Assembly (NCBI GenBank): GCA_017433195.1
Contig: JAFRHR010000024.1
Coordinates: 62,001-126,000 of the forward strand
Source of the DNA: a bacterium
Lineage (GTDB): Bacteria; Cyanobacteriota; Vampirovibrionia; Gastranaerophilales; Gastranaerophilaceae
DNA: 64,000 nt
Direction: 5' to 3'
Part shown: piece after piece, positions 34,987 to 54,289 of the stretch
Position numbering within the stretch: the first letter of the stretch is position 1
Layout of the letters: every line of letters starts with the position of its first letter
Program-made: the position numbers and the translations under genes
The notes under the pieces: model-generated
What the model was told of the DNA's origin: nothing
Database searches by the model: none
The model's input: only the letters and a program-made list of their open reading frames with translations

Positions 34987-36822
34987 ATGAATATTGTAAT
35001 GAACACGTTAAAGTCTTTTAACAGCAACTATGTAACTGCTAAAAGAGTTAATAACACTAATTTAATTATGTCTAATCCGATTCAGGCAGATACTTTTGAA
35101 AGAACAAATGTTTCTTTCAGCGGCAAACACGATAATGTATCAGAATTACAGCAGGCAAGAGTTCACTATGAACCAAAGTTGCCGAAAGTATTCAGAGGTG
35201 ACGGAATAAACAATTTTGAAGTAAAACAGGGTAAAAAGACAGAATCTGTTTCAGATCAGAAAGAAATTCAGAGACTTTTCCCTGAAACATACGGTCAGCC
35301 GATTATAGAATTTGAAGAAATGTCTTCTAAGAAAGCGGCTAAAGTCGGTAAAAACGAACATTCTGATAACAAACCGTTAAAAGTAGGTATTATCTTATCA
35401 GGAGGACAGGCTCCCGGCGGACACAACGTTATTACAGGCTTGTATGATTCATTAAAGAAGATTAATCCTAAATCTGAATTATACGGATTTTTAGGCGGCC
35501 CGTCAGGATTGGTTGACGATAAATATATTAAATTTGACGATAAAAAAATTGATTCTATAAGAAATACAGGCGGATTTGATGTTATAGGTTCAGGAAGAAC
35601 AAAATTAGAAACAGAAGAGCAATTTGAAAAAGTTTTAGATAACTGCAAAAAACACGGAATTGAAGCAATAACAATAGTTGGCGGGGACGATTCAAACACA
35701 AATGCCGCAGTTTTGGCTGAATGGTTAAAAGCAAAAGGCGAAAATATCAATGTTGTAGGCTGTCCTAAAACTATTGACGGAGACTTAAAGAATGAACAAA
35801 TCGAAACTTCTTTCGGTTTTGATACCGCAACAAAGACTTACTCGGAAATCGTAGGTAACATTGAAAAAGATGCAGCTTCAGCAAAGAAATACTGGCACTT
35901 CGTTAAGGTTATGGGAAGAAGCGCATCACACGTTGCATTAGAAGTTGCTCTGCAAACTCATCCGAACGTAACTCTGTTATCAGAAGAAGTTGAACAGAAG
36001 AAACTTTCTTTAAATGACGTTGTAGATTACACAGCAGGTGTTGTTGCAAAAAGAGCGGAAGAAGGTAAGAATTACGGAGTTGCCGTAATTCCTGAAGGCT
36101 TAATTGAATTCTTCCCGGAAATGAAGACTTTAATCGGAAACCTTAACGATCTTGCAGCAGACGAGAACTTACAAGATGTAATGCAAAACGGTTCAGCAAA
36201 GGATAAAATTTCAGTTACAAGACAAAACTTGGGCGAGGATGACTTAAAGGTATTTGATTCACTTCCCGAAGCAATACAGGGACAGTTGCTCATGGACAGA
36301 GATTCTCACGGAAACGTTCAGGTTTCTAAAATTGATACAGAAAAATTGATTATTCAGATGGTAGATAAGAAGCTCAAAGACATGAAGGCTGAAGGAAAAT
36401 ATAACGGCAAATTCTCATCTCAGGCACACTTTGTAGGATATGAAGGCAGATGTGCATTCCCGTCAAACTTCGATGCTGACTATTGCTACTCTTTGGGTAC
36501 AACTGCCGCAGCCCTGATAAATTCAGGCAAAACAGGTTATTTGGCATCAGTTAAAAATCTTGATAAAAAAGCAGATAAGTGGACTGCAGGCGGAACTCCT
36601 ATTACCATGTTATTCAATATGGAAAAGAGAAGCGGAAAGAACAAACCTGTAATTAAGAAAGCGTTAGTTGAAATGGACAGCCCTGCGTTCAAAGAACTTC
36701 AAAAGAACAGAAAAGACTGGGCAGTAAATGACGAATACTTAATTCCTGGTGCAATTCAGTATTTCGGGCCGTCTGATGTTTGCGATAAAACAACAAAGAC
36801 GTTACAATTAGAACATAAATAA
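34987..36822 (+). CDS. pfp: PPi-dependent phosphofructokinase with N-terminal tag
   Basis: 611 residues. The core (~131-600) belongs to the long, plant/spirochete-type diphosphate-fructose-6-phosphate 1-phosphotransferases. GIILSGGQAPGGHNV is the first loop. VGGDDSNTNA (~231-240) has Asp where ATP enzymes have Gly, and GCPKTIDGDLKN (~258-269) has the Lys tied to PPi use. VMGRSASHVALEVALQTHPN binds sugar phosphate. It makes fructose-1,6-bisphosphate from PPi, reversibly, saving ATP. Residues 1-~90 are an extra low-complexity segment with NVSFSGK at 41-47, absent from usual members. A lipoprotein gene starts 2 bp downstream. Confidence 0.9.
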   Translation: MNIVMNTLKSFNSNYVTAKRVNNTNLIMSNPIQADTFERTNVSFSGKHDNVSELQQARVHYEPKLPKVFRGDGINNFEVKQGKKTESVSDQKEIQRLFPETYGQPIIEFEEMSSKKAAKVGKNEHSDNKPLKVGIILSGGQAPGGHNVITGLYDSLKKINPKSELYGFLGGPSGLVDDKYIKFDDKKIDSIRNTGGFDVIGSGRTKLETEEQFEKVLDNCKKHGIEAITIVGGDDSNTNAAVLAEWLKAKGENINVVGCPKTIDGDLKNEQIETSFGFDTATKTYSEIVGNIEKDAASAKKYWHFVKVMGRSASHVALEVALQTHPNVTLLSEEVEQKKLSLNDVVDYTAGVVAKRAEEGKNYGVAVIPEGLIEFFPEMKTLIGNLNDLAADENLQDVMQNGSAKDKISVTRQNLGEDDLKVFDSLPEAIQGQLLMDRDSHGNVQVSKIDTEKLIIQMVDKKLKDMKAEGKYNGKFSSQAHFVGYEGRCAFPSNFDADYCYSLGTTAAALINSGKTGYLASVKNLDKKADKWTAGGTPITMLFNMEKRSGKNKPVIKKALVEMDSPAFKELQKNRKDWAVNDEYLIPGAIQYFGPSDVCDKTTKTLQLEHK

Positions 36823-37628: not shown

Positions 37629-37726
37629 GTTTTTCTTTATTAATAACGTAATTTGTAATTTTAAGTTTTTTATTGATTTTGCCCGAGCCGTTTCAATTTG
37701 CTATTATAAAATTAAGAGGAGTTTTA

Positions 37727-38770
37727 ATGGCGGGAAGTGTTTTAAAAAGGATAACATCAGAGAATTATCTGAAACATTATTATGATATTCCTTATGAGGG
37801 AAAAACCTCTGCGGGCAAGCCTTTGAGAAAATTAAAAAACATAACATGCCCATATAGAGGAGTAAAAATCCTCTCGAACGATTCCATAAAAAAGTTTGAA
37901 AAAGAACTTGCCGTTTGTAAAACCGCAGAAGAGTTTGTAAGGCTTTTGGCGGGGTACCAGAATTTTATGCTGCCGACGGAAAAATCAATGTTTGCAATGT
38001 TCAGAGATTTTGCTGCGCTAAATGAAAAGGATAGTCTGCAAAATTGTCTGGCTATGATTAAAAACAATTGCGTTACAAAACTGAAACTTGAAGAATTTGA
38101 AGTTCTGGACAGTGTTGATCATCTGACAAGAAAACTCTCGCCTCAGACGGCGCTTGAAATCAGGGCAAAAACCACAAAATGCAGACAAATAATTTTGAGT
38201 GACAGCAAAAGAGATACTTTTAAACGAAAAACTTTCCTGGCTTCATTAGAACAAATCATTCCCAAAAAGAACGAGCGGGAAATTTTTAACGATATTAAAA
38301 ACAAAGCATTATTTTTACCGACTTCAGAAAGTAGCATAAATGCATTCGTTGTAAAATATTCAAGCAGAAAGCAAACAGAAATTGCAAGGCGTTTGTTTAT
38401 TGCATCAACAGGCTCCATTGAACACATTGTTCCGGCATCTATGGGCGGGCTGAATACGATAGGAAACTTCCTTTTGACAACGGCAAGCGGAAACAGGTAC
38501 AGAGAGAACATGCCGCTTGTTGAATATATAAAAAGATTCCCGAAAATTCCCGAATATATGCAAAAATATACGGACGACATCGTGAATGAAATTCATAACG
38601 GCGGCTTGCAGGGAAATGAAACTTACCCTTACAAAATCAAAAAAAGACTGATGGAAGTATCAGAGGGCAGAATAATGATAAGCCTTTCAAAGTACAATTA
38701 CACGGAAGAAGAAGCGGCAGATGCCGTTGAAGAATTTGAAACCCGCTGGACGAAATTAAAAGGGGAGTGA
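37727..38770 (+). CDS. HNH-like nuclease domain protein
   Basis: 347 residues. The C-terminal half contains STGSIEHIVPASMGGLNTIG followed by NFLLTTASGNRYR, which matches the HNH layout (E-H-I-V-P-x-S-x-G-G, then N-x-L and the last N). The zinc-binding CxxC pairs of many HNH enzymes are missing. The N-terminal 200 residues are helical with CPYRGVKILSN; no family recognised. ATG at 37727 has a GAGGAG site; earlier in-frame codons do not. Function (DNA nuclease, defence or effector) is not settled. Confidence 0.6.
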   Translation: MAGSVLKRITSENYLKHYYDIPYEGKTSAGKPLRKLKNITCPYRGVKILSNDSIKKFEKELAVCKTAEEFVRLLAGYQNFMLPTEKSMFAMFRDFAALNEKDSLQNCLAMIKNNCVTKLKLEEFEVLDSVDHLTRKLSPQTALEIRAKTTKCRQIILSDSKRDTFKRKTFLASLEQIIPKKNEREIFNDIKNKALFLPTSESSINAFVVKYSSRKQTEIARRLFIASTGSIEHIVPASMGGLNTIGNFLLTTASGNRYRENMPLVEYIKRFPKIPEYMQKYTDDIVNEIHNGGLQGNETYPYKIKKRLMEVSEGRIMISLSKYNYTEEEAADAVEEFETRWTKLKGE

Positions 38771-38828: not shown

Positions 38829-38838
38829 TTTTGTGTTT

Positions 38839-38900
38839 TGTAAAATTATATTAAACGGCCTGTTTTTAATAGCAAATTATTTTTTTACGTTGTTTATAAA
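38839..38900 (+). promoter_or_regulatory. Type I shared upstream element, array unit 1
   Basis: TGTAAAA at 38839 and TATAAA at 38895 (56 bp apart), followed by CAGCAGG before the ATG at 38917. It matches the elements of array units 3 and 5. Confidence 0.55.
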
Positions 38901-38916
38901 AATCAGCAGGTAAAAA

Positions 38917-39711
38917 ATGAAAATTAATCCTATAAGTTTAAACTTTTTTCAATATAAACCCCAAAATACGGTGACAAGTCCTTTACGTATGAATAACGGG
39001 CTTCAGTGTGATACGGTCAGTTTTGGCGCTGACATATCAAATGATCATTCTTCGTCGTGGTTTAACGAATTTTACGGGATAGACAAATTAGGAAAATTAA
39101 AACCCAAACACAAAGGTACTATTTATAAAAAAGTTAAAGATAAAGACGGAAATATCAATAAAGTTCCGGTAAAAGTAAGTATTGTAAAAGAAGAGCCTGA
39201 CGAATTTCATTTTTATGACGGTCATAAAAATATAGGTCATGTTGAATTGAGTTATATTACGAAGGAACATTGTAAAGAAGATAAAGGCTATATATTCAAA
39301 AATTATAAAGACGAAGGAATCAGAGGCGACAGAGTTATAGTAAATTATGTTGTTAATGAGGAACAGGGTAAATATTGCGGAATAGGTCATTTGGCAGATT
39401 TGATAGAAGTTGCGGTCTGTAAAGAACTCGGAATTAAACCGAATGTCGTATCTGAAAGTCTTGACGAACCTGCACCTCTGCACTACTTGAGAGGAAAAAG
39501 GTTTGTTCCGTATGAAAAATATGTTAATAAAAAAGAGTTACAGTCTTTGGAAGGTGAAAATCCAAATAAAATAATAAAACAAATAATAGATGAAACTCCC
39601 AAAGGTGAAAAATTTAAAGTGCCGAAATTACATAATGATCTTGTTATGTATATGCCGAGAGATATGATAAAAAAACTTGAAAAAGAACTTGAAGAAAACC
39701 CCATATTCTAA
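38917..39711 (+). CDS. Array paralog 1, GNAT-like family
   Basis: 264 residues; first gene of unit 1 (type I element). The N-terminus reads INPISLNFFQYKPQNTV and QCDTVSFGA, with Gly-Ala in place of the common Ser-Gly. The linker has the FYGIDKLGKL stretch shared with copies 3 and 11. Core motif KYCGIGHLADLIEVAVCKEL and helix PAPLHYLRG align with GNAT motif A and the acetyl-donor helix, respectively (inference from pattern). It ends EENPIF. No signal peptide. C-terminal part most like copy 11. Confidence 0.8.
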   Translation: MKINPISLNFFQYKPQNTVTSPLRMNNGLQCDTVSFGADISNDHSSSWFNEFYGIDKLGKLKPKHKGTIYKKVKDKDGNINKVPVKVSIVKEEPDEFHFYDGHKNIGHVELSYITKEHCKEDKGYIFKNYKDEGIRGDRVIVNYVVNEEQGKYCGIGHLADLIEVAVCKELGIKPNVVSESLDEPAPLHYLRGKRFVPYEKYVNKKELQSLEGENPNKIIKQIIDETPKGEKFKVPKLHNDLVMYMPRDMIKKLEKELEENPIF

Positions 39712-39725
39712 ATAAAAGGATTGAT

Positions 39726-40541
39726 ATGAAAATAAATCCTGTACAGTTTAATTTTATTCAACCAAAACCGCAAAAAACGGTTAATCGCACGCTGCTTTTG
39801 AATAATACACTAACTACTGATACTGTAAGTTTTTCAGGAGTTTTGGATATATTTAGGGGAAAAAAGACAGAAGAGCCTGAAAAGACTTTAGATGATCTTG
39901 TTCCGAAGCATAAAGGGATTATTTATAAAAAGGTTACGGATAAAAACGGGAAAATTGTTGATAAAGTTCCGGTAGAAGTCGATATTGTAAAAAAAGAAAA
40001 CCCTAAAACTGAACCAACTGAATTTTTTATCACAAAAGATGATCAACTTTTAGGTTATGTTAAATTAAAGTACTATTCTGAGAAAGATTGTAAAGAAGAT
40101 CCTTACCGTACGTTATGCAAAGATTTTAAGGAAGAAGGAATTAAAGGCGGCAGAATAGAAGTTAAGTATATTCATAACTTTTGCGAAGATGAATATGCAG
40201 GAATCGGACACCTTGCAGATTTGATAGAAGTTGCAGCCTGCAAAGAATTAGGAATTGAGCCTAACATTGTATCTTTAAGTTTTAATAATGTTGCTCCGAT
40301 ACATTATTTAAGAGGAAAAAGATTCTTTCCTTATGAAAAATATTGTCCGGATTCAGAAATGAAAAAGCACAATTTATACGATAAAAATCCGAATGATACT
40401 GTAAGAGAAATTATCGAAAATACTTCAAAAGGGGAAAATTTCGATACTTCTCCTATAAAAGCAACTTGTTTATATATGTATATGCCAAAAGAACAGGTAA
40501 AAAAACTTGAAAAAGAACTTGAAAACCACCCGATATTTTAA
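39726..40541 (+). CDS. Array paralog 2, GNAT-like family
   Basis: 271 residues, the longest copy; second gene of unit 1. Tag TDTVSFSG at ~31-38. Core EYAGIGHLADLIEVAACKEL and VAPIHYLRGKRF. A two-residue insertion and the run PKTEPTEF lengthen the region between the first and second strands. Its C-terminal part (MYMPKEQVKKLEKEL) shares the Gln-Val variant only with copy 6 (MYMPKSQVKELEEEL), suggesting common descent or conversion between them. Ribosome site AAAAGGA precedes ATG. Confidence 0.8.
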   Translation: MKINPVQFNFIQPKPQKTVNRTLLLNNTLTTDTVSFSGVLDIFRGKKTEEPEKTLDDLVPKHKGIIYKKVTDKNGKIVDKVPVEVDIVKKENPKTEPTEFFITKDDQLLGYVKLKYYSEKDCKEDPYRTLCKDFKEEGIKGGRIEVKYIHNFCEDEYAGIGHLADLIEVAACKELGIEPNIVSLSFNNVAPIHYLRGKRFFPYEKYCPDSEMKKHNLYDKNPNDTVREIIENTSKGENFDTSPIKATCLYMYMPKEQVKKLEKELENHPIF

Positions 40542-40553
40542 AAAAGGACGAAA

Positions 40554-41357
40554 ATGAGAATAAATCCGATACAATTTAATTTTATTCAAAACAAACCGCA
40601 AAACACGGTTAATCGACCTTTGCGTATAAATAATACGTTACAAAAAGATACTGTCACTTTCAGCGGAAATAAAAAGGATAAAGACTGTTCCTCAGCAGAT
40701 GACGATTTTTTCGGAACAGAAAAATTAAAAAAATTAGAACCTAAGTACAAAGGAATAGTTTATAAAAAAGTCTATGATGAAAACGGCAAAGTTATTAAAA
40801 AAATTCCGACAGAAGTTGATATTGTAAAAACATCATCGGATGTGTTTTCTTTTATAATTGACGGGGAATACAGAGGCTTTGTTGAATTGAGTTATGTTTC
40901 AAAAGAGCATTGCAAAGAAGATAAGGATTGCAAATACAGAAATTATAAAGATGAGGGAATCACAGGAGACAGAGTTATAGTTGATTATCTCAAAAATGAC
41001 TGCGGGAATGAATATTGCGGATTCGGACATCTCGCAGATTTGTTGGAAGTTGCCGTTTGTAAAGAATTGGGTATTGAACCTAATATAGTGTCTCAAAGTA
41101 CAAGAAGTGCAGCCCCTTTGCACTATATGAGAGGAAAAAGATTTGTTCCTTACAAAAAGTATCTCAGCCGATATGACAGAAAAAGTATGGATGTATACGG
41201 AAAAAGTCCGAACGAAACAATAAAAAAAATTGTTGAAAATACTCCAAAAGGAGAAAAGTTTGATACTTCCGAATTAAAAAATACGCCTTTAATGTATATG
41301 CCAAAAGAAATGATAAAAGAACTTGAAAAAGAACTTGAAGAACACCCGATATTCTAA
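40554..41357 (+). CDS. Array paralog 3, GNAT-like family
   Basis: 267 residues; third in unit 1. N-terminus INPIQFNFIQNKPQNTV, tag KDTVTFSG. The linker is acidic and Ser-rich (DCSSADDDFFGTEKLKKL), sharing the G-T/I-[DE]-K-[LI] element with copies 1 and 11. Core EYCGFGHLADLLEVAVCKEL carries Cys and Phe at positions that are Gly and Ile in most copies. Helix AAPLHYMRG. Ends EEHPIF. Confidence 0.8.
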   Translation: MRINPIQFNFIQNKPQNTVNRPLRINNTLQKDTVTFSGNKKDKDCSSADDDFFGTEKLKKLEPKYKGIVYKKVYDENGKVIKKIPTEVDIVKTSSDVFSFIIDGEYRGFVELSYVSKEHCKEDKDCKYRNYKDEGITGDRVIVDYLKNDCGNEYCGFGHLADLLEVAVCKELGIEPNIVSQSTRSAAPLHYMRGKRFVPYKKYLSRYDRKSMDVYGKSPNETIKKIVENTPKGEKFDTSELKNTPLMYMPKEMIKELEKELEEHPIF

Positions 41358-41368
41358 AAAGGACGAAA

Positions 41369-42157
41369 ATGAATATAAGCTCAATACAATTTAATTTTAT
41401 TCAACCCAAAACGCAAAACACGGTTAATCGTCCTTTGTGTATGAAAAACGAACTTCAAACGGATACGGTAAGTTTTTCAGGATTATTCAGAAAAGAAAAA
41501 AAACAGGAAAAGGATATAAAAGATCTCGTTCCTAAACATAAAGGAATAATTTACAAAAAAGTAAGAGACGAAAACGGAAATGTAGTTAAAAAAGTTCCTG
41601 TTGAAGTCGATATTGTGAAATATAAATATGATAGCGCTACATTTGATTTTATGCTTGACGGAGAAAATGTAGGATATGTTCAGTTAAGATATTACCCGAA
41701 AGAAGTTTGTAAACGCAGTAAATACTATGATTCTTTAAAAAATTACAGAAGAGAGGGAATTAAAGGGGACAGAATAATAGTTGATATGGTTAAAAATAAA
41801 AAACAGGATGAGTATGGCGGGATAGGACATTTATCAGATTTATTAGAGATTGCGGTGTGTAATGAATTAGGAATTGAGCCTAATATATTATCCTATAGCA
41901 AGAAAGAGGCCGCACCATTACATTATTTAAGAGGTAAAAGATTTATTCCTTATGAAAAATATTGTAAAAGAAATGAATTAAGGCAACGCAATGTAAAAGG
42001 CAAAAATCCGAATGACACAATAAAAGAAATTATCGAAAGAACTCCAAAAGGAGAAAAATTTAATACTGACGAACTTCCTTTTGCGCCATTGATGTATATG
42101 CCAAAATCCGTTGCAAAAGAACTCGAAGAAGAACTTAAAGAGCATCCGATTTTTTAA
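41369..42157 (+). CDS. Array paralog 4, GNAT-like family
   Basis: 262 residues; last of unit 1. Tag TDTVSFSG. Core EYGGIGHLSDLLEIAVCNEL is slightly divergent (Ser and Asn substitutions). From KEAAPLHYLRG to the end it is nearly the same as copy 9, including FNTDELPFAPLMYMP and KELEEELKEHPIF, although the two are five genes apart and their middles differ. That points to recent gene conversion or segmental duplication of the 3' half. Confidence 0.8.
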   Translation: MNISSIQFNFIQPKTQNTVNRPLCMKNELQTDTVSFSGLFRKEKKQEKDIKDLVPKHKGIIYKKVRDENGNVVKKVPVEVDIVKYKYDSATFDFMLDGENVGYVQLRYYPKEVCKRSKYYDSLKNYRREGIKGDRIIVDMVKNKKQDEYGGIGHLSDLLEIAVCNELGIEPNILSYSKKEAAPLHYLRGKRFIPYEKYCKRNELRQRNVKGKNPNDTIKEIIERTPKGEKFNTDELPFAPLMYMPKSVAKELEEELKEHPIF

Positions 42158-42166
42158 AACTTAGAA

Positions 42167-42230
42167 TGTAAATTATTATTAATTTACCTTTTATATTTAT
42201 CAATTTTTTCTGCGAAAAAATGTTTATAAA
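42167..42230 (+). promoter_or_regulatory. Type II shared upstream element, array unit 2
   Basis: TGTAAATT at 42167 and TATAAA at 42225 (58 bp apart), with TTTTTTCTGCGAAAAAATG between. TGTAAGG is a weak ribosome site. It resembles only the element of unit 4 in detail. Confidence 0.5.
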
Positions 42231-42248
42231 TGTGTAAGGTATTTTTGT

Positions 42249-43007
42249 ATGAATATTTCGTGTCTGAATTTTAATATGATTAAACCTGTTCAAAATAATA
42301 ACAGGCAAAACTGTTCTTATGCAAATTTAGTTGGGCTTCATGCAGACACAGTTACTTTTACTGGAATAAATAAAAAAGAAAAAACTTTAGAAGACCTTGT
42401 CCCGAAAAATAAGGGTACTATCTATAAAAAAGAAACAGACGCAAACGGAAATACGGTTAAAACATCTGTTAAAGTCGATATAGTTAAATCGCAACCATTC
42501 GAATTTACTTTTATTCATGACGGTGAAGTTATAGGAAAACTTGATTTAACTTATATAAAAAAAGATGAAGAGGGTAGATACAATGGGATTCTTGATAGCG
42601 ATTATGAGAATGAAGGTGTTATTGGAAGCCGAATAGATGCAGAATATGTTGAAAACTTTAAGCAGGATGAATATGGCGGTATAGCACATCTTGCAGATTT
42701 AATAGCTGTTGCAGCTTGTAAAGAACTCGGAATTAAACCGAATGTCGTTTCGCTTAGCCTGGAAGATGCAGCTCCGTTTCATTATGTAAGGGGAAAACGT
42801 TTTATTCCGTTTAAAGAATACCACAGTGATTATTATGATTTTTACGATAATAAAGAACCTAATGATATTGTAAGAGAAATTGTTGAAAATACTCCGAAGG
42901 GTAAAAATTTCGATACTCTTATGATTCAGCATGAATTCTTAACCTATATGCCGAAAGAAATGATAGAAGATCTGGAAACAGAACTTGAAAAAAATCCGAT
43001 ATTTTAA
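42249..43007 (+). CDS. Array paralog 5, GNAT-like family
   Basis: 252 residues, the shortest copy; first of unit 2. The N-terminus is the most divergent of the set (SCLNFNMIKPVQNNNRQN) but retains ADTVTFTG. Core EYGGIAHLADLIAVAACKEL has Ala where most have Gly. Helix AAPFHYVRGKRF. Its YYDFYDNKEPND region and FLTYMPKEMI end belong to a subtype shared with copies 7 and 12. Confidence 0.8.
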   Translation: MNISCLNFNMIKPVQNNNRQNCSYANLVGLHADTVTFTGINKKEKTLEDLVPKNKGTIYKKETDANGNTVKTSVKVDIVKSQPFEFTFIHDGEVIGKLDLTYIKKDEEGRYNGILDSDYENEGVIGSRIDAEYVENFKQDEYGGIAHLADLIAVAACKELGIKPNVVSLSLEDAAPFHYVRGKRFIPFKEYHSDYYDFYDNKEPNDIVREIVENTPKGKNFDTLMIQHEFLTYMPKEMIEDLETELEKNPIF

Positions 43008-43018
43008 AAGGAAAAGAA

Positions 43019-43798
43019 ATGAAAATAAATCCGGTACAATTTAATTTTATCCAGCCAAAACCTCAAAGCAGGGTAACTTGTCCTTTAAGAATGAAACCTG
43101 CTTTAAAAGCTGATACTGTTAATTTTACAGGTTTTTGGGATGATTCTCCAATGAGTAAAATGAACAGTTTAGTTCCAAAACATAAAGGAATTGTTTATAA
43201 AAACATTACGGATGAAAACGGAAATGTTACAGGAAAAGTGCCCGTAGAAGTTGATATTGTAAAAACAGCTCCGAATGTATTTCAGTTTCAGAAAGATAAA
43301 AAGATTATAGGCAGAGTTGAAATGAATTATGTTCCTGCATATGATTGTGACAGCAGTCCTTATGCTGTTTTAAGCAAAACTTATAAAGATGAAGACATTG
43401 TGGGAGACAGAATAGAGGTTCAGTATATATATAACAATTGTGAAAATGAATATAGCGGAGTTGGGCACCTTTCTGATTTGGTAGAGGTTGCTGCATGCAA
43501 GGAATTAGGCATTAAGCCCAATATTATATCTTACAGTTTTGACGATGTTGCACCATTGCATTATAAAAGGGGAAAAAGATTTATTCCTTATGAAAAATAC
43601 TGTGGTAAGTCCGAAATAGACATGTATGATTTGGAAGGCAAAAATCCGAACGATACAGTCAGAGAAATTGTCGAAAGTACCCCAAAAGGAAAAAAATTTG
43701 ATACATCACCGATTAAAACTCCGTTTTTGGTAATGTATATGCCAAAAAGTCAGGTAAAAGAGTTGGAAGAAGAACTCAAAGAGCATCCGATTTTTTAA
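43019..43798 (+). CDS. Array paralog 6, GNAT-like family
   Basis: 259 residues; second of unit 2. N-terminus INPVQFNFIQPKPQ, tag ADTVNFTG (Asn before Phe). Core EYSGVGHLSDLVEVAACKEL, with Ser and Val at variable positions, helix VAPLHYKRGKRF. C-terminal FLVMYMPKSQVKELEEEL links it to copy 2. A GGAAAAG site precedes the ATG. Confidence 0.8.
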   Translation: MKINPVQFNFIQPKPQSRVTCPLRMKPALKADTVNFTGFWDDSPMSKMNSLVPKHKGIVYKNITDENGNVTGKVPVEVDIVKTAPNVFQFQKDKKIIGRVEMNYVPAYDCDSSPYAVLSKTYKDEDIVGDRIEVQYIYNNCENEYSGVGHLSDLVEVAACKELGIKPNIISYSFDDVAPLHYKRGKRFIPYEKYCGKSEIDMYDLEGKNPNDTVREIVESTPKGKKFDTSPIKTPFLVMYMPKSQVKELEEELKEHPIF

Positions 43799-43807
43799 TT
43801 TTTGTTT

Positions 43808-43870
43808 TGTAAAAATATATTAAAGGTTGAGGCTTGCGCTAACAAAATATTTTTTTATGCTTTTTATAAA
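43808..43870 (+). promoter_or_regulatory. Type I shared upstream element, array unit 3
   Basis: TGTAAAA at 43808 and TATAAA at 43865 (57 bp apart), with AACAAAATATTTTTTTATGC in between and TTAGCAGG as the ribosome site. It is almost identical to the element of unit 5 and close to that of unit 1. Confidence 0.55.
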
Positions 43871-43884
43871 ATTAGCAGGTAAAA

Positions 43885-44679
43885 ATGAATATCACAGCTG
43901 TTAATTTTAATTCATTTCAGTATAAACAAATTGGTAAAAATACTACCCCTGCATTTTGCGTGCTGAAAAATAATACTTTAAATTCCGATACTGTTAGTTT
44001 TTCGGGGCTTTTTGATGTATTTAAAAAAGAAAAAACAGAACAGCCCCAAAAAACTTTAAATGACTGCGTGCCAAAGCATAAAGGAATTGTTTACAAAAAA
44101 ATCAAAGATGAAAAAGGGCAGGTTATCGAAAAGAAACCTGTCGAAGTTGATATTGTAAAAATCGGAGCGAGTGATTTTGAGTTTGAATTAGACGGCGAAA
44201 TAGTCGGTGGAGTAAGAATGAATTATTTCAAAAAAAACGGGAGGAAAGATAAATTCAGTAATTTATACTGGAATTACAGGAGAGAAGGGATAAAAGGCGA
44301 CAGAATAATCGCAAATTATATATATAACTGCAATGAAAATGAATATGGCGGAATCGGGCATCTTGCCGATTTGGTAGAAGTTGCTTGTTGTAAAGAATTG
44401 GGTTTTGAGCCAAATGTTGTTTCTCATAGCGTGCCTGATGCTGCTCCGTTGCATTATTTGAGAGGAAAACGTTTTGTTCCCTTCAGAAAGTACAACAAAC
44501 AATATAATTGGTATTACAACAGAAAAAATCCGAACGCTATGGTTAAAGAAATTATAGAAAATACCCCAAAAGGACAGAAATTTGATACTTCAAAAATAAA
44601 ACATTGTTTTTTAACTTATATGCCCAAAGAAATGATAAAAAATTTGGAAGAAGAACTCAAAGAACACCCGATATTTTAG
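43885..44679 (+). CDS. Array paralog 7, GNAT-like family
   Basis: 264 residues; first of unit 3. N-terminus ITAVNFNSFQYKQIGKN, tag SDTVSFSG. The linker (FDVFKKEKTEQPQKTLNDC) resembles that of copies 2 and 9. Core EYGGIGHLADLVEVACCKEL has a second Cys. Helix AAPLHYLRG. C-terminal subtype NWYYNRKNPN and FLTYMPKEMI as in copies 5 and 12. Confidence 0.8.
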   Translation: MNITAVNFNSFQYKQIGKNTTPAFCVLKNNTLNSDTVSFSGLFDVFKKEKTEQPQKTLNDCVPKHKGIVYKKIKDEKGQVIEKKPVEVDIVKIGASDFEFELDGEIVGGVRMNYFKKNGRKDKFSNLYWNYRREGIKGDRIIANYIYNCNENEYGGIGHLADLVEVACCKELGFEPNVVSHSVPDAAPLHYLRGKRFVPFRKYNKQYNWYYNRKNPNAMVKEIIENTPKGQKFDTSKIKHCFLTYMPKEMIKNLEEELKEHPIF

Positions 44680-44691
44680 AAAAGGACGAAA

Positions 44692-45480
44692 ATGAGAATA
44701 AATCCGATACAGTTTAATTTTGTTCAGCACAAACCGCAAAATACGGTCAGCAGTCCTTTGCGTATAAATAATTCGGTTCAGGCAGATACTGTCAGTTTTA
44801 CGGGTAAGGCGGAAAAGAAAATATCAAAAGAGAAAATGGGGAAATTAGTCCCGAAACATAAAGGAATTATTTACAGAAAATTGCAGGATGCAGAAGGAGC
44901 TGTGGTAAAAGTTCCTGTATTGGTAGATATCGTTAAATCTGAACCTGAGGAATTTGAATTTAAAATTGACGGAAGAAGAATCGGATATGCACGTTTGAGT
45001 TATATCCCTAAAAAATACTGCAAAGATGAAATTAAAGATGCTTACGTTGATTGTTATTACAAAAACTATGAAGATTTGGGGATAACAGGTGACAGAATAA
45101 AAGTTAATTATGTAGAAAATGAAAAAGAATACCTGTACGGAGGGATAGGACATCTTGCGGATTTACTTGAGGTTGCGTGTTGTCAGAAACTCGGGTTCAA
45201 ACCAAATGTTATATCGTCAAGTGTAAATGATGCTGCCCCGATACATTATTTAAGAGGGAAAAGATTTGTTCCGTATGAAGAGTATTGCGATGAAGCTGAA
45301 ATGAAAGGTTATGATTTGTACGGTAAAAATCCAAACGACACAATGGAAGAAATAATTGAAAATGCTTCTTCGGGTTATGAATTTGATACTTCCAAAATCC
45401 AAAATGAACCCCTGATGTACATGCCTGAAGAAATGATAGCAGAACTTGAAGAGGAACTTAAAGATCATCCGATATTTTAA
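44692..45480 (+). CDS. Array paralog 8, GNAT-like family
   Basis: 262 residues; second of unit 3. INPIQFNFVQHKPQNTV and ADTVSFTG. The region before the core is longer and lysine/aspartate-rich (DEIKDAYVDCYYKNYEDLG). Core LYGGIGHLADLLEVACCQKL starts with Leu instead of Glu. Helix AAPIHYLRG. It uses NASSGYEFDTSK where most have a Thr-Pro-Lys-Gly stretch, the only copy to lose TPKG apart from copy 13. Ends KDHPIF. Confidence 0.8.
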   Translation: MRINPIQFNFVQHKPQNTVSSPLRINNSVQADTVSFTGKAEKKISKEKMGKLVPKHKGIIYRKLQDAEGAVVKVPVLVDIVKSEPEEFEFKIDGRRIGYARLSYIPKKYCKDEIKDAYVDCYYKNYEDLGITGDRIKVNYVENEKEYLYGGIGHLADLLEVACCQKLGFKPNVISSSVNDAAPIHYLRGKRFVPYEEYCDEAEMKGYDLYGKNPNDTMEEIIENASSGYEFDTSKIQNEPLMYMPEEMIAELEEELKDHPIF

Positions 45481-45494
45481 ACAAAAGGATAAAA

Positions 45495-46280
45495 ATGAAA
45501 ATAACCCCGATACAATTTAATTTTGTTCAAAACAAACCGCAAAATACGGTTAGCAATCCTTTGCGTATGAATAACGGACTTCAGGCAGACACGGTAAGTT
45601 TTTCGAGTTCATGCAGAAAAGAAAAAACAGAAAATCCCCAAAAGACTTTAAAAGACTGTGTTCCGAAACACAAAGGTATTATTTATAGAAAAGTTTATGA
45701 TAAGAGAGGAAAAATTATAAAAAAAGAGCCTGTTGAAGTTGATATCGTAAAGGACGGACCGGATATTTTTACTTTCCAAGTTGACGAGGAATCTTTAGGG
45801 TATGTTGATTTGAGTTACCTTACGGCAGATGAATGTAAAAAGATAAAACTCAACATATACAAAAATTACAAGGACGAAGGTATCGAAGGAGACAGGATTA
45901 GAGTAGATTTTGTCGAAAATCAAGAGCCGGATGAATATGGCGGTATGGGACATTTGGCAGATTTGCTTGAAGTTGCAGCTTGTAAAGAACTGGGTATTGA
46001 GCCGAATATTGTATCTCACAGCAAGAAAGAAGCAGCCCCATTGCATTATTTAAGAGGAAAAAGGTTTATTCCGTATGAAAAATACTGTAGCAGAAGCGAT
46101 ATAAGACGTCTCGATTTAAAAGGCAAAAATCCGAACGACACAATAAAAGAAATTATAAAAAGAACGCCGAAAGGTGAAAAATTTAATACCGATGAACTTC
46201 CTTTTGCCCCGTTAATGTATATGCCGAAATCAATGGCAAAAGAACTTGAAGAAGAACTTAAAGAACATCCGATATTTTAA
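45495..46280 (+). CDS. Array paralog 9, GNAT-like family
   Basis: 261 residues; third of unit 3. ITPIQFNFVQNKPQNTV and ADTVSFSS, where Ser replaces the Gly of the tag. Core EYGGMGHLADLLEVAACKEL. The 3' part is nearly the same as copy 4 (see there). The N-terminal 20 residues match copy 10 (ITPIQFNFVQ and KPQNTV). It is therefore mosaic: one neighbour at the 5' end, a distant copy at the 3' end. Confidence 0.8.
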   Translation: MKITPIQFNFVQNKPQNTVSNPLRMNNGLQADTVSFSSSCRKEKTENPQKTLKDCVPKHKGIIYRKVYDKRGKIIKKEPVEVDIVKDGPDIFTFQVDEESLGYVDLSYLTADECKKIKLNIYKNYKDEGIEGDRIRVDFVENQEPDEYGGMGHLADLLEVAACKELGIEPNIVSHSKKEAAPLHYLRGKRFIPYEKYCSRSDIRRLDLKGKNPNDTIKEIIKRTPKGEKFNTDELPFAPLMYMPKSMAKELEEELKEHPIF

Positions 46281-46294
46281 ACAAAAGGATAAAA

Positions 46295-47074
46295 ATGAAA
46301 ATAACCCCGATACAATTTAATTTTGTTCAAAGCAAACCGCAAAATACGGTTAATCGTCCTTTGCAAATGAATAAAGGACTTATGACTGATGTTGTGAGTT
46401 TTACGGGATCAGATAAACAAGAAAAAACGAAGAAAAAATTAGAAGATCTTGAACCAAAACATAAGGGAATTATTTATAAAAAAGTAAGAGATGAAAAAGG
46501 AAATGTGATAAAAAAAATACCTGTTGAAGTTGATATTGTAAATTGGGGAGAGGGGGAATTTCAGTTTAAACTTGACGATGAATGTATAGGATATGTTCAG
46601 TTGCATCATATTCCTGCAGAAGAATGTGATAAAAACAGCTGGGCTGAGTTATACATGAATTATAAAGAAGAAGGAGTTGTCGGGGACAGACTTGAAGTAA
46701 AATATCTGTCAAATCAGAATGAAGAAGAATACGGCGGCATCGGACATCTTGCGGATTTACTTGAGGTTGCAGCATGTAAAGAAATGGGTATAAAACCGAA
46801 TGTAATTTCACATGCTGCTTTAAATGCTTCTCCTCTGCACTATGTAAGAGGGAAAAGATTTATTCCTTATGAAAGATATTGCAGTATAGAAGAACGGGAC
46901 GAGTATGACATATTAGATAAAAATCCGAATGACACAATAAAAGAAATTATTGAGAGCACTCCGAAAGGAGAAAAATTTGATACGTCAGAACTCGATATGT
47001 TCCTCGTAATGTATATGCCGAAAGATATGATAAAAAGTCTTGAAAAAGAACTCAAAAAACATCCGATTTTTTAG
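46295..47074 (+). CDS. Array paralog 10, GNAT-like family
   Basis: 259 residues; last of unit 3. Tag TDVVSFTG (Val replaces Thr). Core EYGGIGHLADLLEVAACKEM with Met, helix ASPLHYVRGKRF. Strand VDIVNWGEGEFQF replaces the common VDIVK, so the Lys before the variable segment is lost. Ends KKHPIF. The upstream ribosome site is shared with copy 9 (AAAAGGATAAAA). Confidence 0.8.
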   Translation: MKITPIQFNFVQSKPQNTVNRPLQMNKGLMTDVVSFTGSDKQEKTKKKLEDLEPKHKGIIYKKVRDEKGNVIKKIPVEVDIVNWGEGEFQFKLDDECIGYVQLHHIPAEECDKNSWAELYMNYKEEGVVGDRLEVKYLSNQNEEEYGGIGHLADLLEVAACKEMGIKPNVISHAALNASPLHYVRGKRFIPYERYCSIEERDEYDILDKNPNDTIKEIIESTPKGEKFDTSELDMFLVMYMPKDMIKSLEKELKKHPIF

Positions 47075-47083
47075 TAAAAAATT

Positions 47084-47149
47084 TGTAAAATATTATTAAT
47101 TTGCCCCTTATAAATATCAATTTTTTTCTCCAAAAAGTGTTTTTATAAG
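47084..47149 (+). promoter_or_regulatory. Type II shared upstream element, array unit 4
   Basis: TGTAAAA at 47084 and TATAAG at 47144 (60 bp apart) with TTTTTTTCTCCAAAAAGTG between. The flanks match unit 2 (TATTATTAATTT, ATCAATTTTTT). Confidence 0.5.
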
Positions 47150-47166
47150 TGTAAAGGTTTAGTTGT

Positions 47167-47979
47167 ATGAATATAAATGCTATAAATTTTAATGCTTTCC
47201 AATACAAACAAAATTCTAAAGTGACAAATCCATCACCAAGATTTGGGCAACTAATGCAGGATACTGTTGAGATAAGTCAAAAGCCTGTACAAAATGAGCC
47301 TTTTAGCTTGACGGATTCTATACTGAATATGCTTTACGGAACTGATAAAATCGAGAGCTTAGAACCTAAGCATAAAGGGATTATTTATAAAAAAGTTAAG
47401 GATAAAAACGGAAAAGTTATTCAAAAAATTCCTATTGAAGTTGATATTGTAAAATCAAGAGCTGATAAATTTGAATTTGAACATAAGGGTGAAACTATAG
47501 GTTATGTTGAATTGAGTTATGTTCCGGAGGATAAATGTAAAGACGATACAGATGAGATTTTATACAAAAATTATAAAGAAGAAGGAGTCGTTGGGGACAG
47601 AATTATAGTTAACTTTCTATATAACAAAAATCCTGATGAATATGGCGGAATAGCTCACCTCGCAGATTTACTGGAGGTTGCAGCCTGCAAAGAATTGGGG
47701 TTTGAACCTAATGTCGTATCTGAAACTCTTGACGATGCAGCACCATTGCATTATCAGAGAGGAAAAAGATTTGTTCCTTATGAAAAATACTGTGATGAAA
47801 GAACTTTGGAAAGATTAAAAGGTAAAAATCCAAACGAGATAGTAAAAAAAGTAATTGAAGACACTCCGTCAGGAGAAAAATTCAAAAAACCGGCTTTATG
47901 TAGTGAAACAGTAATGTATATGCCAAAAGATATGATAAAAGAACTTGAAGAGGAGCTTAAAGAACACCCGATTTTTTAA
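47167..47979 (+). CDS. Array paralog 11, GNAT-like family, tag lost
   Basis: 270 residues; first of unit 4. The N-terminus (INAINFNAFQYKQNSKV) keeps the start of the pattern but QDTVEISQKP replaces DTVSFSG, so the F-S-G tag is absent, the clearest loss in the array. A 15-residue linker insertion (FSLTDSILNMLYGTDKIESL) resembles copies 1 and 3. Core EYGGIAHLADLLEVAACKEL, helix AAPLHYQRG. Ends KEHPIF. Confidence 0.8.
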   Translation: MNINAINFNAFQYKQNSKVTNPSPRFGQLMQDTVEISQKPVQNEPFSLTDSILNMLYGTDKIESLEPKHKGIIYKKVKDKNGKVIQKIPIEVDIVKSRADKFEFEHKGETIGYVELSYVPEDKCKDDTDEILYKNYKEEGVVGDRIIVNFLYNKNPDEYGGIAHLADLLEVAACKELGFEPNVVSETLDDAAPLHYQRGKRFVPYEKYCDERTLERLKGKNPNEIVKKVIEDTPSGEKFKKPALCSETVMYMPKDMIKELEEELKEHPIF

Positions 47980-47988
47980 AGGACAAAA

Positions 47989-48753
47989 ATGAATATAATA
48001 CCCTTACAGTTTAATTTTATAAAAACAAAACCGCAAAATACGGTGACAAGTCCTTTGCGCATGAAAAAACAGATAGCTGTTGATACTGTCAGCTTTTCAG
48101 GGAATACCGAGCCGGCCAAAAAGCCCGATCCATTGGATAAACTCGTTCCCAAAAATAAAGGAGTTATTTATAAAAAAGTCAGAGATGAAAAAGGTAAAGT
48201 AATTGAAAAAGTTCCTGTCAAGACTGATATTGTAAATGATGGTGGCGGACTTTTTCTGTTTAAAATTGACGGGAAACAGGCAGGCGGTGTTGTAATGTCA
48301 TGTCTAAAAAAAGACTGTGATACAAAAGATTCTGATTTAATTAAAGATTATGAAAACGAAGGTATTGTCGGAGACAGAATGTATGTAAATTATGTTCAAA
48401 ATGATAATCAGGAAGAATACGGAGGAATAGGACACCTTGCAGATTTGTTAGAAGTTGCGGCTTGTAAAGAAATGGGTTTTGAGCCGAATGTAATATCTTA
48501 TAGTGTGGAAGATTCAGCTCCGCTGCACTATTTGAGAGGTAAAAGATTTATTCCTTTTAAAGAATACAGTGAAAATTTATACAAGTATTACGACAATAAA
48601 AATCCTGATGATGTTGTAAAAGAAATTATTGATAGTACTCCGAAGGGTGAAAAATTTGATACGTCGAACATCAAAGATTATTTCATGGTTTATATGCCGA
48701 AAGAAATGACAAAAGAATTAGAAGAAGAACTCAAAGAACACCCGATTTTTTAA
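47989..48753 (+). CDS. Array paralog 12, GNAT-like family
   Basis: 254 residues; second of unit 4, 9 bp after copy 11. Tag VDTVSFSG. A glycine-rich turn (DGGGLFLFKIDGKQAGGVV) replaces part of the second strand region. Core EYGGIGHLADLLEVAACKEM, helix SAPLHYLRGKRF. C-terminal subtype as in copies 5 and 7 (KYYDNKNPDD, FMVYMPKEM). Confidence 0.8.
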   Translation: MNIIPLQFNFIKTKPQNTVTSPLRMKKQIAVDTVSFSGNTEPAKKPDPLDKLVPKNKGVIYKKVRDEKGKVIEKVPVKTDIVNDGGGLFLFKIDGKQAGGVVMSCLKKDCDTKDSDLIKDYENEGIVGDRMYVNYVQNDNQEEYGGIGHLADLLEVAACKEMGFEPNVISYSVEDSAPLHYLRGKRFIPFKEYSENLYKYYDNKNPDDVVKEIIDSTPKGEKFDTSNIKDYFMVYMPKEMTKELEEELKEHPIF

Positions 48754-48762
48754 CGTGTCGTA

Positions 48763-48825
48763 TGTAAAAATATATTAAAGTTTGAGTCCTGTAGTAACAA
48801 AATATTTTTTTATGCTGTTTATAAA
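48763..48825 (+). promoter_or_regulatory. Type I shared upstream element, array unit 5
   Basis: TGTAAAAATATATTAAA at 48763 and TATAAA at 48820 (57 bp apart), with AACAAAATATTTTTTTATGC between, then TTAGCAGG. Nearly identical to unit 3. Confidence 0.55.
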
Positions 48826-48839
48826 ATTAGCAGGTAAAA

Positions 48840-49625
48840 ATGAAGATAAATTCGATACAGTTTAATTTTATTCAAAACAGGCCGCAAAGAGCAGTAACTT
48901 GTCCTTTGTGCATGAATAATTCACTTTCTGCCGATACGGTCAGCTTCAGTGGTAAAAGTGATGAAGAAGACGAATCAAAAAAAATAGATGATCTTAAGCC
49001 TAAACATAAAGGAATTATTTATAAAAAAGTCAGGGATAAAGACGGAAAAATAATAAAAGTTCCTCAGGAAGTTAAAATTATTAAACGTTCAGGCGGTACG
49101 TTTGATTTTAAAGATGGTAAAGAGTTAATCGGATATGCGCGTTTGGAATATATTCCGGCATCTCACTGTCAGAAAGACAGTATGTATTATGACGATTATA
49201 CAACCAAAAATTATGAAGATTTGGGAATTAAAAATGACAGAATAGAAGTCGAGTATGTTAAGAATTTTGATGAAAAAAGATACGGCGGAATAGGACATTT
49301 AGCCGACTTGATAGAAGTTGCAGCCTGTAAAGAACTCGGGTTTGAACCTAATGTTGTGTCGGTAAGTGTTCCGTCTGCTGCTCCCTTACATTACATGAGA
49401 GGAAAAAGATTTGTTCCGTATGACAGATATTTAGATGAATTTGAAATGAAGAAATATGATTTGGAGGGTGAAAATCCAAACGATACGATAAAAGGAATTA
49501 TTGAAAATAAGCCCGAAAAAGGTGGGTTTGATACATCTTCTCTCGGTTTTGAACTTTTAATGTATATGCCGAAAGATATGATAAAAGAGCTTGAAGAAGA
49601 ACTAAAAGAGCACCCGATTTTTTAG
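48840..49625 (+). CDS. Array paralog 13, GNAT-like family
   Basis: 261 residues; the only gene of unit 5 and the last copy. INSIQFNFIQ, tag ADTVSFSG. The first core strand is altered (QEVKIIKRSGG where others have VDIVK), and motif A begins with Arg (RYGGIGHLADLIEVAACKEL), the closest of all copies to the Q/R-x-x-G-x-G/A of true GNAT enzymes. NKPEKGGFDTSS replaces the usual TPKG stretch. Ends KEHPIF. Confidence 0.8.
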   Translation: MKINSIQFNFIQNRPQRAVTCPLCMNNSLSADTVSFSGKSDEEDESKKIDDLKPKHKGIIYKKVRDKDGKIIKVPQEVKIIKRSGGTFDFKDGKELIGYARLEYIPASHCQKDSMYYDDYTTKNYEDLGIKNDRIEVEYVKNFDEKRYGGIGHLADLIEVAACKELGFEPNVVSVSVPSAAPLHYMRGKRFVPYDRYLDEFEMKKYDLEGENPNDTIKGIIENKPEKGGFDTSSLGFELLMYMPKDMIKELEEELKEHPIF

Positions 49626-49709: not shown

Positions 49710-50498
49710 ATGTCTATAAATTCAAATAATTCTTATAAAGGATTAACTGGATTTACTGTCAAAAATATTTCGTACGAGGTTAACAACATTCTTTATAAAT
49801 CAAGAAGAAAGAAAAAGTACGAATTAAATAAGATTTTCACGGTTTTGACAGTATCTTCACTTGCTGTGCTCTTTTTTGCTGTTTTAACCGTAAGTGCGAA
49901 GGCTTTGCATAAAACAAATGTTATAGACGATCAAGTTGCCTATACAGAGGCTGAAGAACTTATAAAAAACTATACATATCCCACAAATAAACATATTTTG
50001 CTGGCTTTAGACGGAACAACATCTTCCTCGAAAACAAAGAGGGTGTTGCTTAAAGATCCCGGAGGAACTTTGCCTTCAGGCAGGGTTACCATAAAAGTTA
50101 TTGATGATGTAAGGCCAAATCCGTTTTTACCATACAAAGATTACGATTTTTCCAATGTAAGAAAATCGGATATAATCTTACCGCCGGAAGAATTATCAGA
50201 GGGAAGTGATGCGGAAAGAGTTATGGATACTTCTGTTTCCGGAATTTTATACGATACGTATAATCCGTCTGCAATAATCAATATTGAAGGTATTGAATAC
50301 CTTGTAAAACGAGGTGATTGCGTTAATAATTATCATATTTTGGATATTAATAATAAATATGTTGTTGTGAAATTAGGTAAAAATGTTTATAAAGCGGGAG
50401 TAGGTGAAATACTGACTCAAGGCTCAATAAAAAATTCAAATATTCCTAATTTAGAACATAAATTTGGAGGTGCATACTCTTATGACAAAAAAAATTAA
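49710..50498 (+). CDS. GspC/PilP-like pilus or secretion protein
   Basis: 262 residues. The cytoplasmic N-terminus (1-41) is basic and includes NNSYKG, then one membrane span at ~42-63 (FTVLTVSSLAVLFFAVLTV) and a periplasmic region. The C-terminal ~75 residues (SAIINIEGIEYLVKRGDCVN to GVGEILTQGS) resemble the homology region of GspC or PilP, which docks on the secretin. It overlaps the secretin gene and leads a unit with pilB and pilC. The assignment rests on that context as much as on sequence. Confidence 0.6.
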   Translation: MSINSNNSYKGLTGFTVKNISYEVNNILYKSRRKKKYELNKIFTVLTVSSLAVLFFAVLTVSAKALHKTNVIDDQVAYTEAEELIKNYTYPTNKHILLALDGTTSSSKTKRVLLKDPGGTLPSGRVTIKVIDDVRPNPFLPYKDYDFSNVRKSDIILPPEELSEGSDAERVMDTSVSGILYDTYNPSAIINIEGIEYLVKRGDCVNNYHILDINNKYVVVKLGKNVYKAGVGEILTQGSIKNSNIPNLEHKFGGAYSYDKKN

Positions 50499-52257
50499 AA
50501 AGTTAATTGTGTTAATAATGCTTATTGTTTTTTCAGCTCCGGCATGCTTGGCTGTTATATCAAGAAATATAGAGTCAAATGTTAAGAAGCCTATAGATGC
50601 TACAGTTAAAATTGACGATGATATCTGTATTTCAAAAGATAATCCAAAAATAAACATGAGTTTAAGAAATTCTGATGTTCGTCAGGTTTTGAGAATGCTT
50701 GCTGATAAAGCAGGTTTGAATATAATGTTCCACGACAGTGTTGAAGGAAATGTTACTCTTGATTTGGTTAATATGCCGTTAAATCAGGCATTTAAATTGG
50801 TTTTACAGTTATCCGGTTTGAATTATTTTTTGGATACAAACACACTTATAATTACAAAAGGTGATGGAGAAGGAGCAAATTTTTCAAAACAGGAAATAGG
50901 AATTATTCCTATAAAAAACAGGGATGCTATAGAAATTGCCGACTTTTTAAATGGTAATGTTTATTCAATCGGTAAGCCCGGTTTTTCTTCCAGTGAAGCA
51001 GCTATAGTTAATGCAGATAAGAATGAATTGATAATATTTGGTACTGAAAGTGATATTAAAATAGCTAAAAAAGTAGTTGCACAATTTGACAAACCTCAAA
51101 ATTCGAGAACATATATTGTAAATCATACAACTCCGCAGGAAATGGCAAAATTAATTTGCGGTATGCTTGAACCAAACTTTTCAACAGGTGGTGCAGCTGG
51201 AGTTATGACAGGTGGTGCGGATGAAATAAAAATAGGTGAAAATAAAATTGCATGCACAATATCCAAGCAGATGTCAAAAAAAGGTGAGGGGCTTACATCA
51301 TTGGGTAAGACTAACTTGGTTGTGTCATACTTTCCGCAAAGAGGCACTATAAATGTTATTGGCGGATCCGAATATCAGATGCAGCAGATAGAAGAATTTA
51401 TCAAACAAAACGATGTAAAACAACCACAAGCATATTTGGAAGTTTCTTTTTTAGAATTAAGTGAAGATGGCAGTAAAACTTTTGCAAATATATGGAGTAT
51501 GTACGGCGGCAGTCCTTTTGTGGTTAACTTCTCAGGAGGTACAACAACAGTCAGAAGAGATTCTCCCTCGTATTCAGATCTTACATATCATTTTATAACA
51601 TATGATCCGACAACAGGGATGCCGACTCAACAGGATGTCACTTTATCAACACTGAACAAACTTCTTCCTATGAGAATTTCCTGGGCAATGAACTATATTC
51701 TTGAAAATAAAAAAGGAAAAGTTTTATCTAATCCAAAAATATTAATAACAAACGGAGAAGAATCAACAATTGACTTAACGGGTGATTATATCAAGTCATC
51801 GAAAGCGGAATATCTTACCTCAACATCTACAGGAGGTACATCTGTCGGTGCTACTCAAAGAACTTATGACATAGGTAGTGATTTGGGTATTAAAGTTAAT
51901 TTAACTCCTTTTATAAGTCCTGAAGGTTATGTAACTTTGAATATAGAACCTGATTATACAACAGAGAGGTCAACAGTTCTGGATGATGCCGGAAACATAG
52001 TTGCTACATTGTTGCAGAGAAGAAATCTTAAATTAAGTAATGTAAGAATAAAAGATAACGAAACTTTGATTATTGGTGGTATGATGAAAGAATCTGAAAC
52101 CAAAACTGTTAATAAAATTCCTGTGTTAGGAGATGTTCCGGTTATAGGGGCAATTTTCAGATCTACCGCAACCAAAAAAGTTAAAGAAGAAATGGTTATA
52201 ATGCTTACACCAAGAATAATAAAAGAAAATTCAGACATGATTTCAAGTGAGTTATAA
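50482..52257 (+). CDS. pilQ: Type IV pilus/type II secretion secretin
   Basis: About 592 residues. A signal peptide (1-~24, IVLIMLIVFSAPACLA) precedes an STN/N-type domain (RNSDVRQVLRMLADKAGLNI), two further N-domains, and a C-terminal secretin barrel domain with GKVLSNPKILITNGEE, VNLTPFISPEGYVTLNIEPD and the end IPVLGDVPVIGAIFR. It forms the outer-membrane channel for a pilus or secretion pseudopilus. ATG at 50482 has GGAGGTG upstream; the TTG at 50464 does not. It is coupled to pilB (3' end near the next start). Confidence 0.9.
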   Translation: MTKKIKKLIVLIMLIVFSAPACLAVISRNIESNVKKPIDATVKIDDDICISKDNPKINMSLRNSDVRQVLRMLADKAGLNIMFHDSVEGNVTLDLVNMPLNQAFKLVLQLSGLNYFLDTNTLIITKGDGEGANFSKQEIGIIPIKNRDAIEIADFLNGNVYSIGKPGFSSSEAAIVNADKNELIIFGTESDIKIAKKVVAQFDKPQNSRTYIVNHTTPQEMAKLICGMLEPNFSTGGAAGVMTGGADEIKIGENKIACTISKQMSKKGEGLTSLGKTNLVVSYFPQRGTINVIGGSEYQMQQIEEFIKQNDVKQPQAYLEVSFLELSEDGSKTFANIWSMYGGSPFVVNFSGGTTTVRRDSPSYSDLTYHFITYDPTTGMPTQQDVTLSTLNKLLPMRISWAMNYILENKKGKVLSNPKILITNGEESTIDLTGDYIKSSKAEYLTSTSTGGTSVGATQRTYDIGSDLGIKVNLTPFISPEGYVTLNIEPDYTTERSTVLDDAGNIVATLLQRRNLKLSNVRIKDNETLIIGGMMKESETKTVNKIPVLGDVPVIGAIFRSTATKKVKEEMVIMLTPRIIKENSDMISSEL

Positions 52258-52258
52258 A

Positions 52259-54283: not shown

Positions 54284-54289
54284 TAAACT

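Follow-up and report, generated by a model that had tools for sequence, protein, structure and literature searches.

Thirteen intact tandem genes for predicted GNAT-fold proteins with a common N-terminal tag in a genome of the Gastranaerophilaceae

Proteins of the GNAT superfamily (e.g., Pfam PF00583 and PF13302) have a core of strand, GxG loop, helix, strand and helix, with a Tyr in the last helix, and the protein family described here is predicted to have the same core. It differs from the superfamily in that no profile scores above threshold, the Q/R position of motif A is variable and the helices alpha1-alpha2 are missing before the core, and in having its own invariant Cys and His, extra C-terminal helices and an N-terminal tag. 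Another described protein of use for comparison is VipF, a single Legionella effector with tandem GNAT domains, delivered by a type IVb system (PMC10936415). By description rather than by sequence comparison, VipF resembles our family in carrying the GNAT fold in a diverged protein, and two relatives of 555 aa (L030 442-2106 and L034 580-2244) are likewise double-domain proteins with two GNAT-like cores each; unlike the array, VipF is one protein.

The window analysed is a stretch of 64,000 nucleotides (positions 62,001 to 126,000 of contig JAFRHR010000024.1, assembly GCA_017433195.1), and its ORF list contains, at 38917-49625 on the forward strand, 13 ATG-started ORFs of 252-271 aa, of which none is interrupted (Table 1). 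Most intergenic gaps measure 9-14 bp, but copies 5, 7, 11 and 13 are each preceded by a gap of 86-92 bp. All copies could be aligned over their full length, with a mean column identity of 61% and 52 invariant columns, and identity to copy 1 ranges from 45 to 58%. Searched with the family profile, the whole own genome gave exactly the 13 places of the array (E 1e-107 to 1e-134), without internal stops, and no family member outside it. The 13 intact same-strand tandem paralogs reported in a preliminary description of this DNA are therefore borne out by ORF list, alignment and genome search, and the pattern of 13 copies with a shared core is far beyond chance. The invariant columns include Y-x-G-x-x-H-L-x-D-L and P-x-H-Y-x-R-G-K-R-F; the core motifs given in that description are present in all copies, with two corrections: copies 7 and 9 have C in place of the first L of L-x-P-K-x-K-G, and only copies 5 and 11 have A at the loop position described as G or A.

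Table 1. Positions of the array genes, their upstream regions, tagged proteins outside the family and the 305-aa family
Feature	Position	Strand	Evidence
Array copy 1, 264 aa	38917..39711	+	ORF, alignment, genome profile search
Array copy 2, 271 aa, sister of copy 6	39726..40541	+	ORF, alignment, tree
Array copy 3, 267 aa	40554..41357	+	ORF, alignment, genome profile search
Array copy 4, 262 aa, sister of copy 9	41369..42157	+	ORF, alignment, tree
Array copy 5, 252 aa, most divergent	42249..43007	+	ORF, alignment, divergence analysis
Array copy 6, 259 aa	43019..43798	+	ORF, alignment, genome profile search
Array copy 7, 264 aa	43885..44679	+	ORF, alignment, genome profile search
Array copy 8, 262 aa	44692..45480	+	ORF, alignment, genome profile search
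Array copy 9, 261 aa, modelled: 1-45 disordered tag/linker, 51-261 confident GNAT-like core	45495..46280	+	ORF, alignment, AlphaFold2, Foldseek
Array copy 10, 259 aa	46295..47074	+	ORF, alignment, genome profile search
Array copy 11, 270 aa	47167..47979	+	ORF, alignment, genome profile search
Array copy 12, 254 aa	47989..48753	+	ORF, alignment, genome profile search
Array copy 13, 261 aa	48840..49625	+	ORF, alignment, genome profile search
Alpha-type upstream region before copy 1, putative promoter and ribosome-binding site	38830..38916	+	77-80% identity to other alpha regions
Alpha-type upstream region before copy 7	43799..43884	+	85% identity to region before copy 13
Alpha-type upstream region before copy 13	48754..48839	+	Identity to alpha regions
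Beta-type upstream region before copy 5	42158..42248	+	74% identity to region before copy 11; 48-56% to alpha regions
Beta-type upstream region before copy 11	47075..47166	+	74% identity to region before copy 5
Phosphofructokinase-domain protein, not a family member, N-terminus MNI...ADTFERTNVSFSGK like the array tag	34987..36822	+	PF00365, E 1.5e-40
Further tagged unrelated proteins	L052 1999-13856; L055 15203-18480; L072 16834-19101; L075 3-1202; L112 461-1483		
305-aa family	L109 2456-3370; L110 4122-5036; L111 4096-5010; L112 1542-2456; L113 691-1605; L114 4011-4925; L115 3621-4535		

For 41 members of the family, Pfam and NCBIfam gave no meaningful match and hence no GNAT model. Three members searched against PADLOC had no match, and the same number searched against PHROGs had no informative one (best E 0.0024, function unknown); the family profile found nothing meaningful among PDB chains, and no relative was found on viral contigs. 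A phage or anti-phage defence origin was rejected on the results for viral contigs, PADLOC and PHROGs. Among papers on the suspected order, none was recognisable from its title or the start of its abstract as describing the family or its tag, and both appear undescribed within the libraries and literature searched, in line with what had been proposed for the family at the outset.

Copy 9 was modelled by AlphaFold2 with 16 sequences, and the block means of pLDDT were 92-97 over residues 51-261 but only 31-54 over residues 1-50. The model has strands at 61-68, 74-86, 91-96 and 99-109 and a helix at 111-116, followed by strand 134-142, helix 151-166, strand 172-175, helix 178-186 and C-terminal helices; no counterpart of helices alpha1-alpha2 of a standard GNAT precedes strand 2. 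When this model was compared with the PDB by Foldseek, almost all of the 50 matches listed were GNATs (best E 5.0e-3, probability 0.98; none below E 1e-3), and one was malonyl-CoA decarboxylase, which also contains a GNAT domain. An independent AlphaFold model of a tag-less 189-aa relative (L042:6486-7052; pLDDT 89) had GNAT-type acetyltransferases as its listed top matches, 25 of them below E 1e-3 (best 1.1e-4, probability up to 1.00). TM-scores of both models are low, about 0.2-0.57, so the relation to known GNATs is distant, and in a profile-profile comparison with ordinary GNATs from related genomes, a kind of check that had been proposed, hhalign assigned a probability of only 7%, though in the expected register. 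The GNAT-like assignment thus stands on two confident models and on top fold matches that are almost only GNATs, against low TM-scores and the lack of a Pfam or NCBIfam GNAT match; the GNAT fold is supported at the fold level and weakly by sequence. In both models the path from motif A to motif B, strand-loop-helix-strand-helix, lies where the preliminary description had placed it.

Conservation across the 41 members agrees with that description also in the replacement of the classic Q/R of motif A, where position 147 is E in 13, K in 8, Q in 4 and R in 3, Q/R being a minority. In the same motif G150 is found in 36 of 41, and position 152 is G in 37 and A in 3. D156 is kept in 40, and C163, H184 and G188 in all 41. 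The Tyr of motif B, the general acid of GNATs, to which a catalytic role may be ascribed here from its position, is Y185 in 37 members and F in the remaining 4. On the predicted fold, and with the x-x-G-x-G/A of motif A and the motif-B Tyr retained in most members but the Q/R variable, we accept the GNAT fold and treat acyltransferase activity as an inference.

The gene content of the genome points to a probable gut bacterium of the Gastranaerophilales (Vampirovibrionia), and relatives of the array genes are restricted in distribution. Among 191 genomes of the same family-level group, 25 genomes other than that of the array have a match, with 1-3 copies each, and 9 of 41 genera hold a member when the own genome is counted; overall, 30-odd same-family genomes carry mostly 1-3 copies and many others carry none. 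Most relatives are about 30% identical to the array. Some further ones came from a sample of 386 genomes of the phylum, and all of the matches listed there fall in the same family-level group. In a maximum-likelihood tree with 32 rows from other genomes, the 13 array copies are monophyletic, and since they form one group at a support of 100/100, the array is, judging from this tree, a lineage-specific tandem expansion. Locus L042 (Bacterium isolate RGIG9635, yak jejunum) has three shorter tandem copies of 189-204 aa, adjoining thrS and flagellar rod genes (both labels given by reading). The neighbourhoods of single copies that were read in other genomes consist mostly of housekeeping genes and differ between genera, with neither a conserved operon partner nor a hint of substrate, and on this variation a conserved partner for the family was rejected. 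Just upstream of the array in the window lies an HNH-endonuclease-like gene (37673-38770), with relatives in 53 of 60 family genomes and up to 10 matches in one genome. Directly downstream (50464-55513) lie a secretin gene and then PilB/GspE- and PilC/GspF-like genes; this secretin-type operon is conserved, and in the relatives examined no family member is beside it.

A tagged family of 305-aa proteins from the same lineage (L109-L115) is distantly related to the array family and matches its profile over most of its length including the N-terminus (hmmsearch E 6e-12; hhalign probability 97%, E 1.3e-11). Its GNAT-like core, GGIG...FHYSMGYR, has a motif A/B more typical than that of the array family, and no informative Pfam match was found for it. 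Unlike the array genes, it is present as a single copy in the seven genomes where it was found and is nearly invariant between genera, and this strong conservation suggests a core function or a recent transfer.

The longer gaps and the stretch ahead of copy 1 belong to one of two types, alpha (before copies 1, 7 and 13; 77-85% identical) and beta (before copies 5 and 11; 74%), with 48-61% identity between types; the preliminary description did not mention this recurrence. Ribosome-binding-site-like sequences precede all 13 genes. With putative promoters in these regions, the array has five apparent transcription units of 4+2+4+2+1 genes. Because alpha and beta recur in the order alpha-4-beta-2-alpha-4-beta-2-alpha-1, the layout suggests that a six-gene block was duplicated. 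The gene-body tree lacks the pairing that a recent event of this kind would leave, but coding sequences may have diverged too far, or recombined, to show it. That the upstream regions have stayed similar although synonymous sites are close to saturation suggests that they have a conserved role in regulation. When about 0.84 Mb of the genome was searched with nhmmer, the five array sites were the only significant matches, and a regulon defined by these regions was rejected on this result; scans for Sigma-70 promoters and terminators stayed at shuffle expectation.

The first approximately 40 residues form a separate module, which the preliminary description had missed. Residues 1-45 of the array proteins are predicted to be disordered, with an approximate sequence of M[KNR]I..[IV].FN....L..DTVSFSG, and the pattern can be generalised as MxI..I..N...[ST]F[KSG][GA]. 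Unrelated proteins of the same genome begin in a similar way, among them a phosphofructokinase-domain protein, proteins which we take, from reading their translations, to be ankyrin-repeat-like, and others. With the family removed, x[ST]F[KSGT][GAS] within residues 8-60 is enriched 3.3-fold among 664 own-genome predicted proteins, covering about 0.84 Mb of 1.58 Mb (p 5e-6), and 4.8-fold among 226 proteins of other genomes (p 1e-4). The matches listed include chance matches in ordinary enzymes. Because unrelated proteins carry the tag while some family members (L035/L042, L036 and L038) are without it, the tag is a module, probably for sorting.

The explanation that we favour, with somewhat better than even confidence, is that the 13 proteins are GNAT-fold acyl-CoA-dependent N-acyltransferases with diversified substrates and a common sorting tag. 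Strand 134-142, the loop N...EYGGxGHL, helix 151-166, strand 172-175 and helix 178-186 would hold the CoA cofactor, and H184-Y185 in the last of these helices would supply the catalytic Tyr/His. The variable linker 37-57, the insert 110-133 and the loops 201-210 and 231-240 would be turned towards different substrates, and the disordered N-terminal residues would probably act as a sorting or export signal. The genes would be expressed from five transcription units behind two recurring upstream types, an arrangement consistent with the proposed six-gene block duplication.

A GNAT fold does not have to transfer acyl groups, and the proteins might be binders of CoA, peptides or RNA, or catalyse another reaction through Cys163/His184/Asp156, the array being a diverged set of binders. 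The variable Q/R position, the invariant C163 and H184, which are not standard GNAT signature residues, and the distant fold scores are in accord with this possibility, and VipF shows that a GNAT domain can bind a ligand without catalysis (PMC10936415). Nevertheless, Y185 and the GxG loop are kept in almost all copies and relatives, and a non-catalytic scaffold would not require them; we consider this reading rather unlikely, though the strongest of the alternatives. A different proposal concerns where the proteins act: the tag would send them out of the cell, possibly through a second type-III-type apparatus, as an effector set acting on other cells. An FlhA/SctV-type export gate is found in 190 of 191 family genomes, in two score classes (approximately 1e-260 and 1e-218), and flagellin is present in exactly 26 of 60 tested genomes, those whose best gate is of the first class. 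Flagellin-less genomes thus still have the second class, which is retained by nearly all family genomes; six of nine Gastranaerophilales genomes have been reported with only a subset of flagellar genes (PMC4040986). Two type-III-type export operons are found in the own genome, L182 4220-10108 (G000:C67) and L091 1133-6156 (G000:C35), and the former contains a second-class gate together with FliE-, FliF-, FliG- and FliH-like genes (names by reading translations). The near-universal gate, the disordered tag on unrelated proteins including ankyrin-repeat-like ones, and the precedent of GNAT effectors such as VipF (PMC10936415) speak for the effector set, but the link between tag and apparatus is drawn by reasoning, the tag also heads the phosphofructokinase-domain protein, which is not an obvious effector, and many family genomes have no copy. 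We judge it unlikely; it is compatible with the favoured acyltransferase explanation and would narrow the role of the tag. Its most specific form seems less probable still: the tag would be an export signal used across the lineage by a second type-III-type apparatus without a role in motility, which even the flagellin-less genomes of the family keep, and the 13 proteins would be exported acyltransferases diversified over outside targets.

The history of the copies bears on a further alternative, raised in the preliminary description as antigenic variants, that they are cassettes which exchange sequence by recombination to vary a surface protein. In its favour are the many tandem paralogs, the 37 identical bases at the 5' end of copies 9 and 10, the longest exact tract common to two copies, and the 87% identity of copies 4 and 9 at the 3' end; short exact tracts such as these (at most 37 bp) may reflect occasional gene conversion. 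However, all 13 genes are intact with ribosome-binding-site-like sequences in front, neither a signal peptide nor a lipobox is evident on reading, and the median dS of 1.41 is near saturation, so that there is little ongoing homogenisation. With a mean dN of 0.37, dN/dS across copies, one of the checks proposed earlier, is about 0.27, and pN/pS rises from 0.32 in motif A/B, the lowest value, to 0.58 in the 110-133 insert and 0.70 in the linker. We therefore regard antigenic or phase variation as very improbable: the genes are intact and under purifying selection, dS is near saturation and there are no long common tracts. By these rates the array is a set of old intact duplicates on which purifying selection acts, most strongly in the presumed cofactor-site region. 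Entropy along the alignment peaks at residues 41-50, 111-120 and 201-210, and variation is located in the linker 37-57, the insert 110-133 and the loops 201-210 and 231-240, motif A/B being conserved, a distribution compatible with the diversified roles also suggested before. Among the sister pairs within the array, copies 4-9 and 2-6 have the best support.

Because thirteen old, intact versions have been kept in one place under purifying selection, the array argues for distinct roles of its copies. With this family the GNAT fold gains a distant branch that no profile model covers. Should the tag prove to direct sorting or export, sequence alone would suffice to list which proteins of a large uncultured gut lineage are localised or exported.
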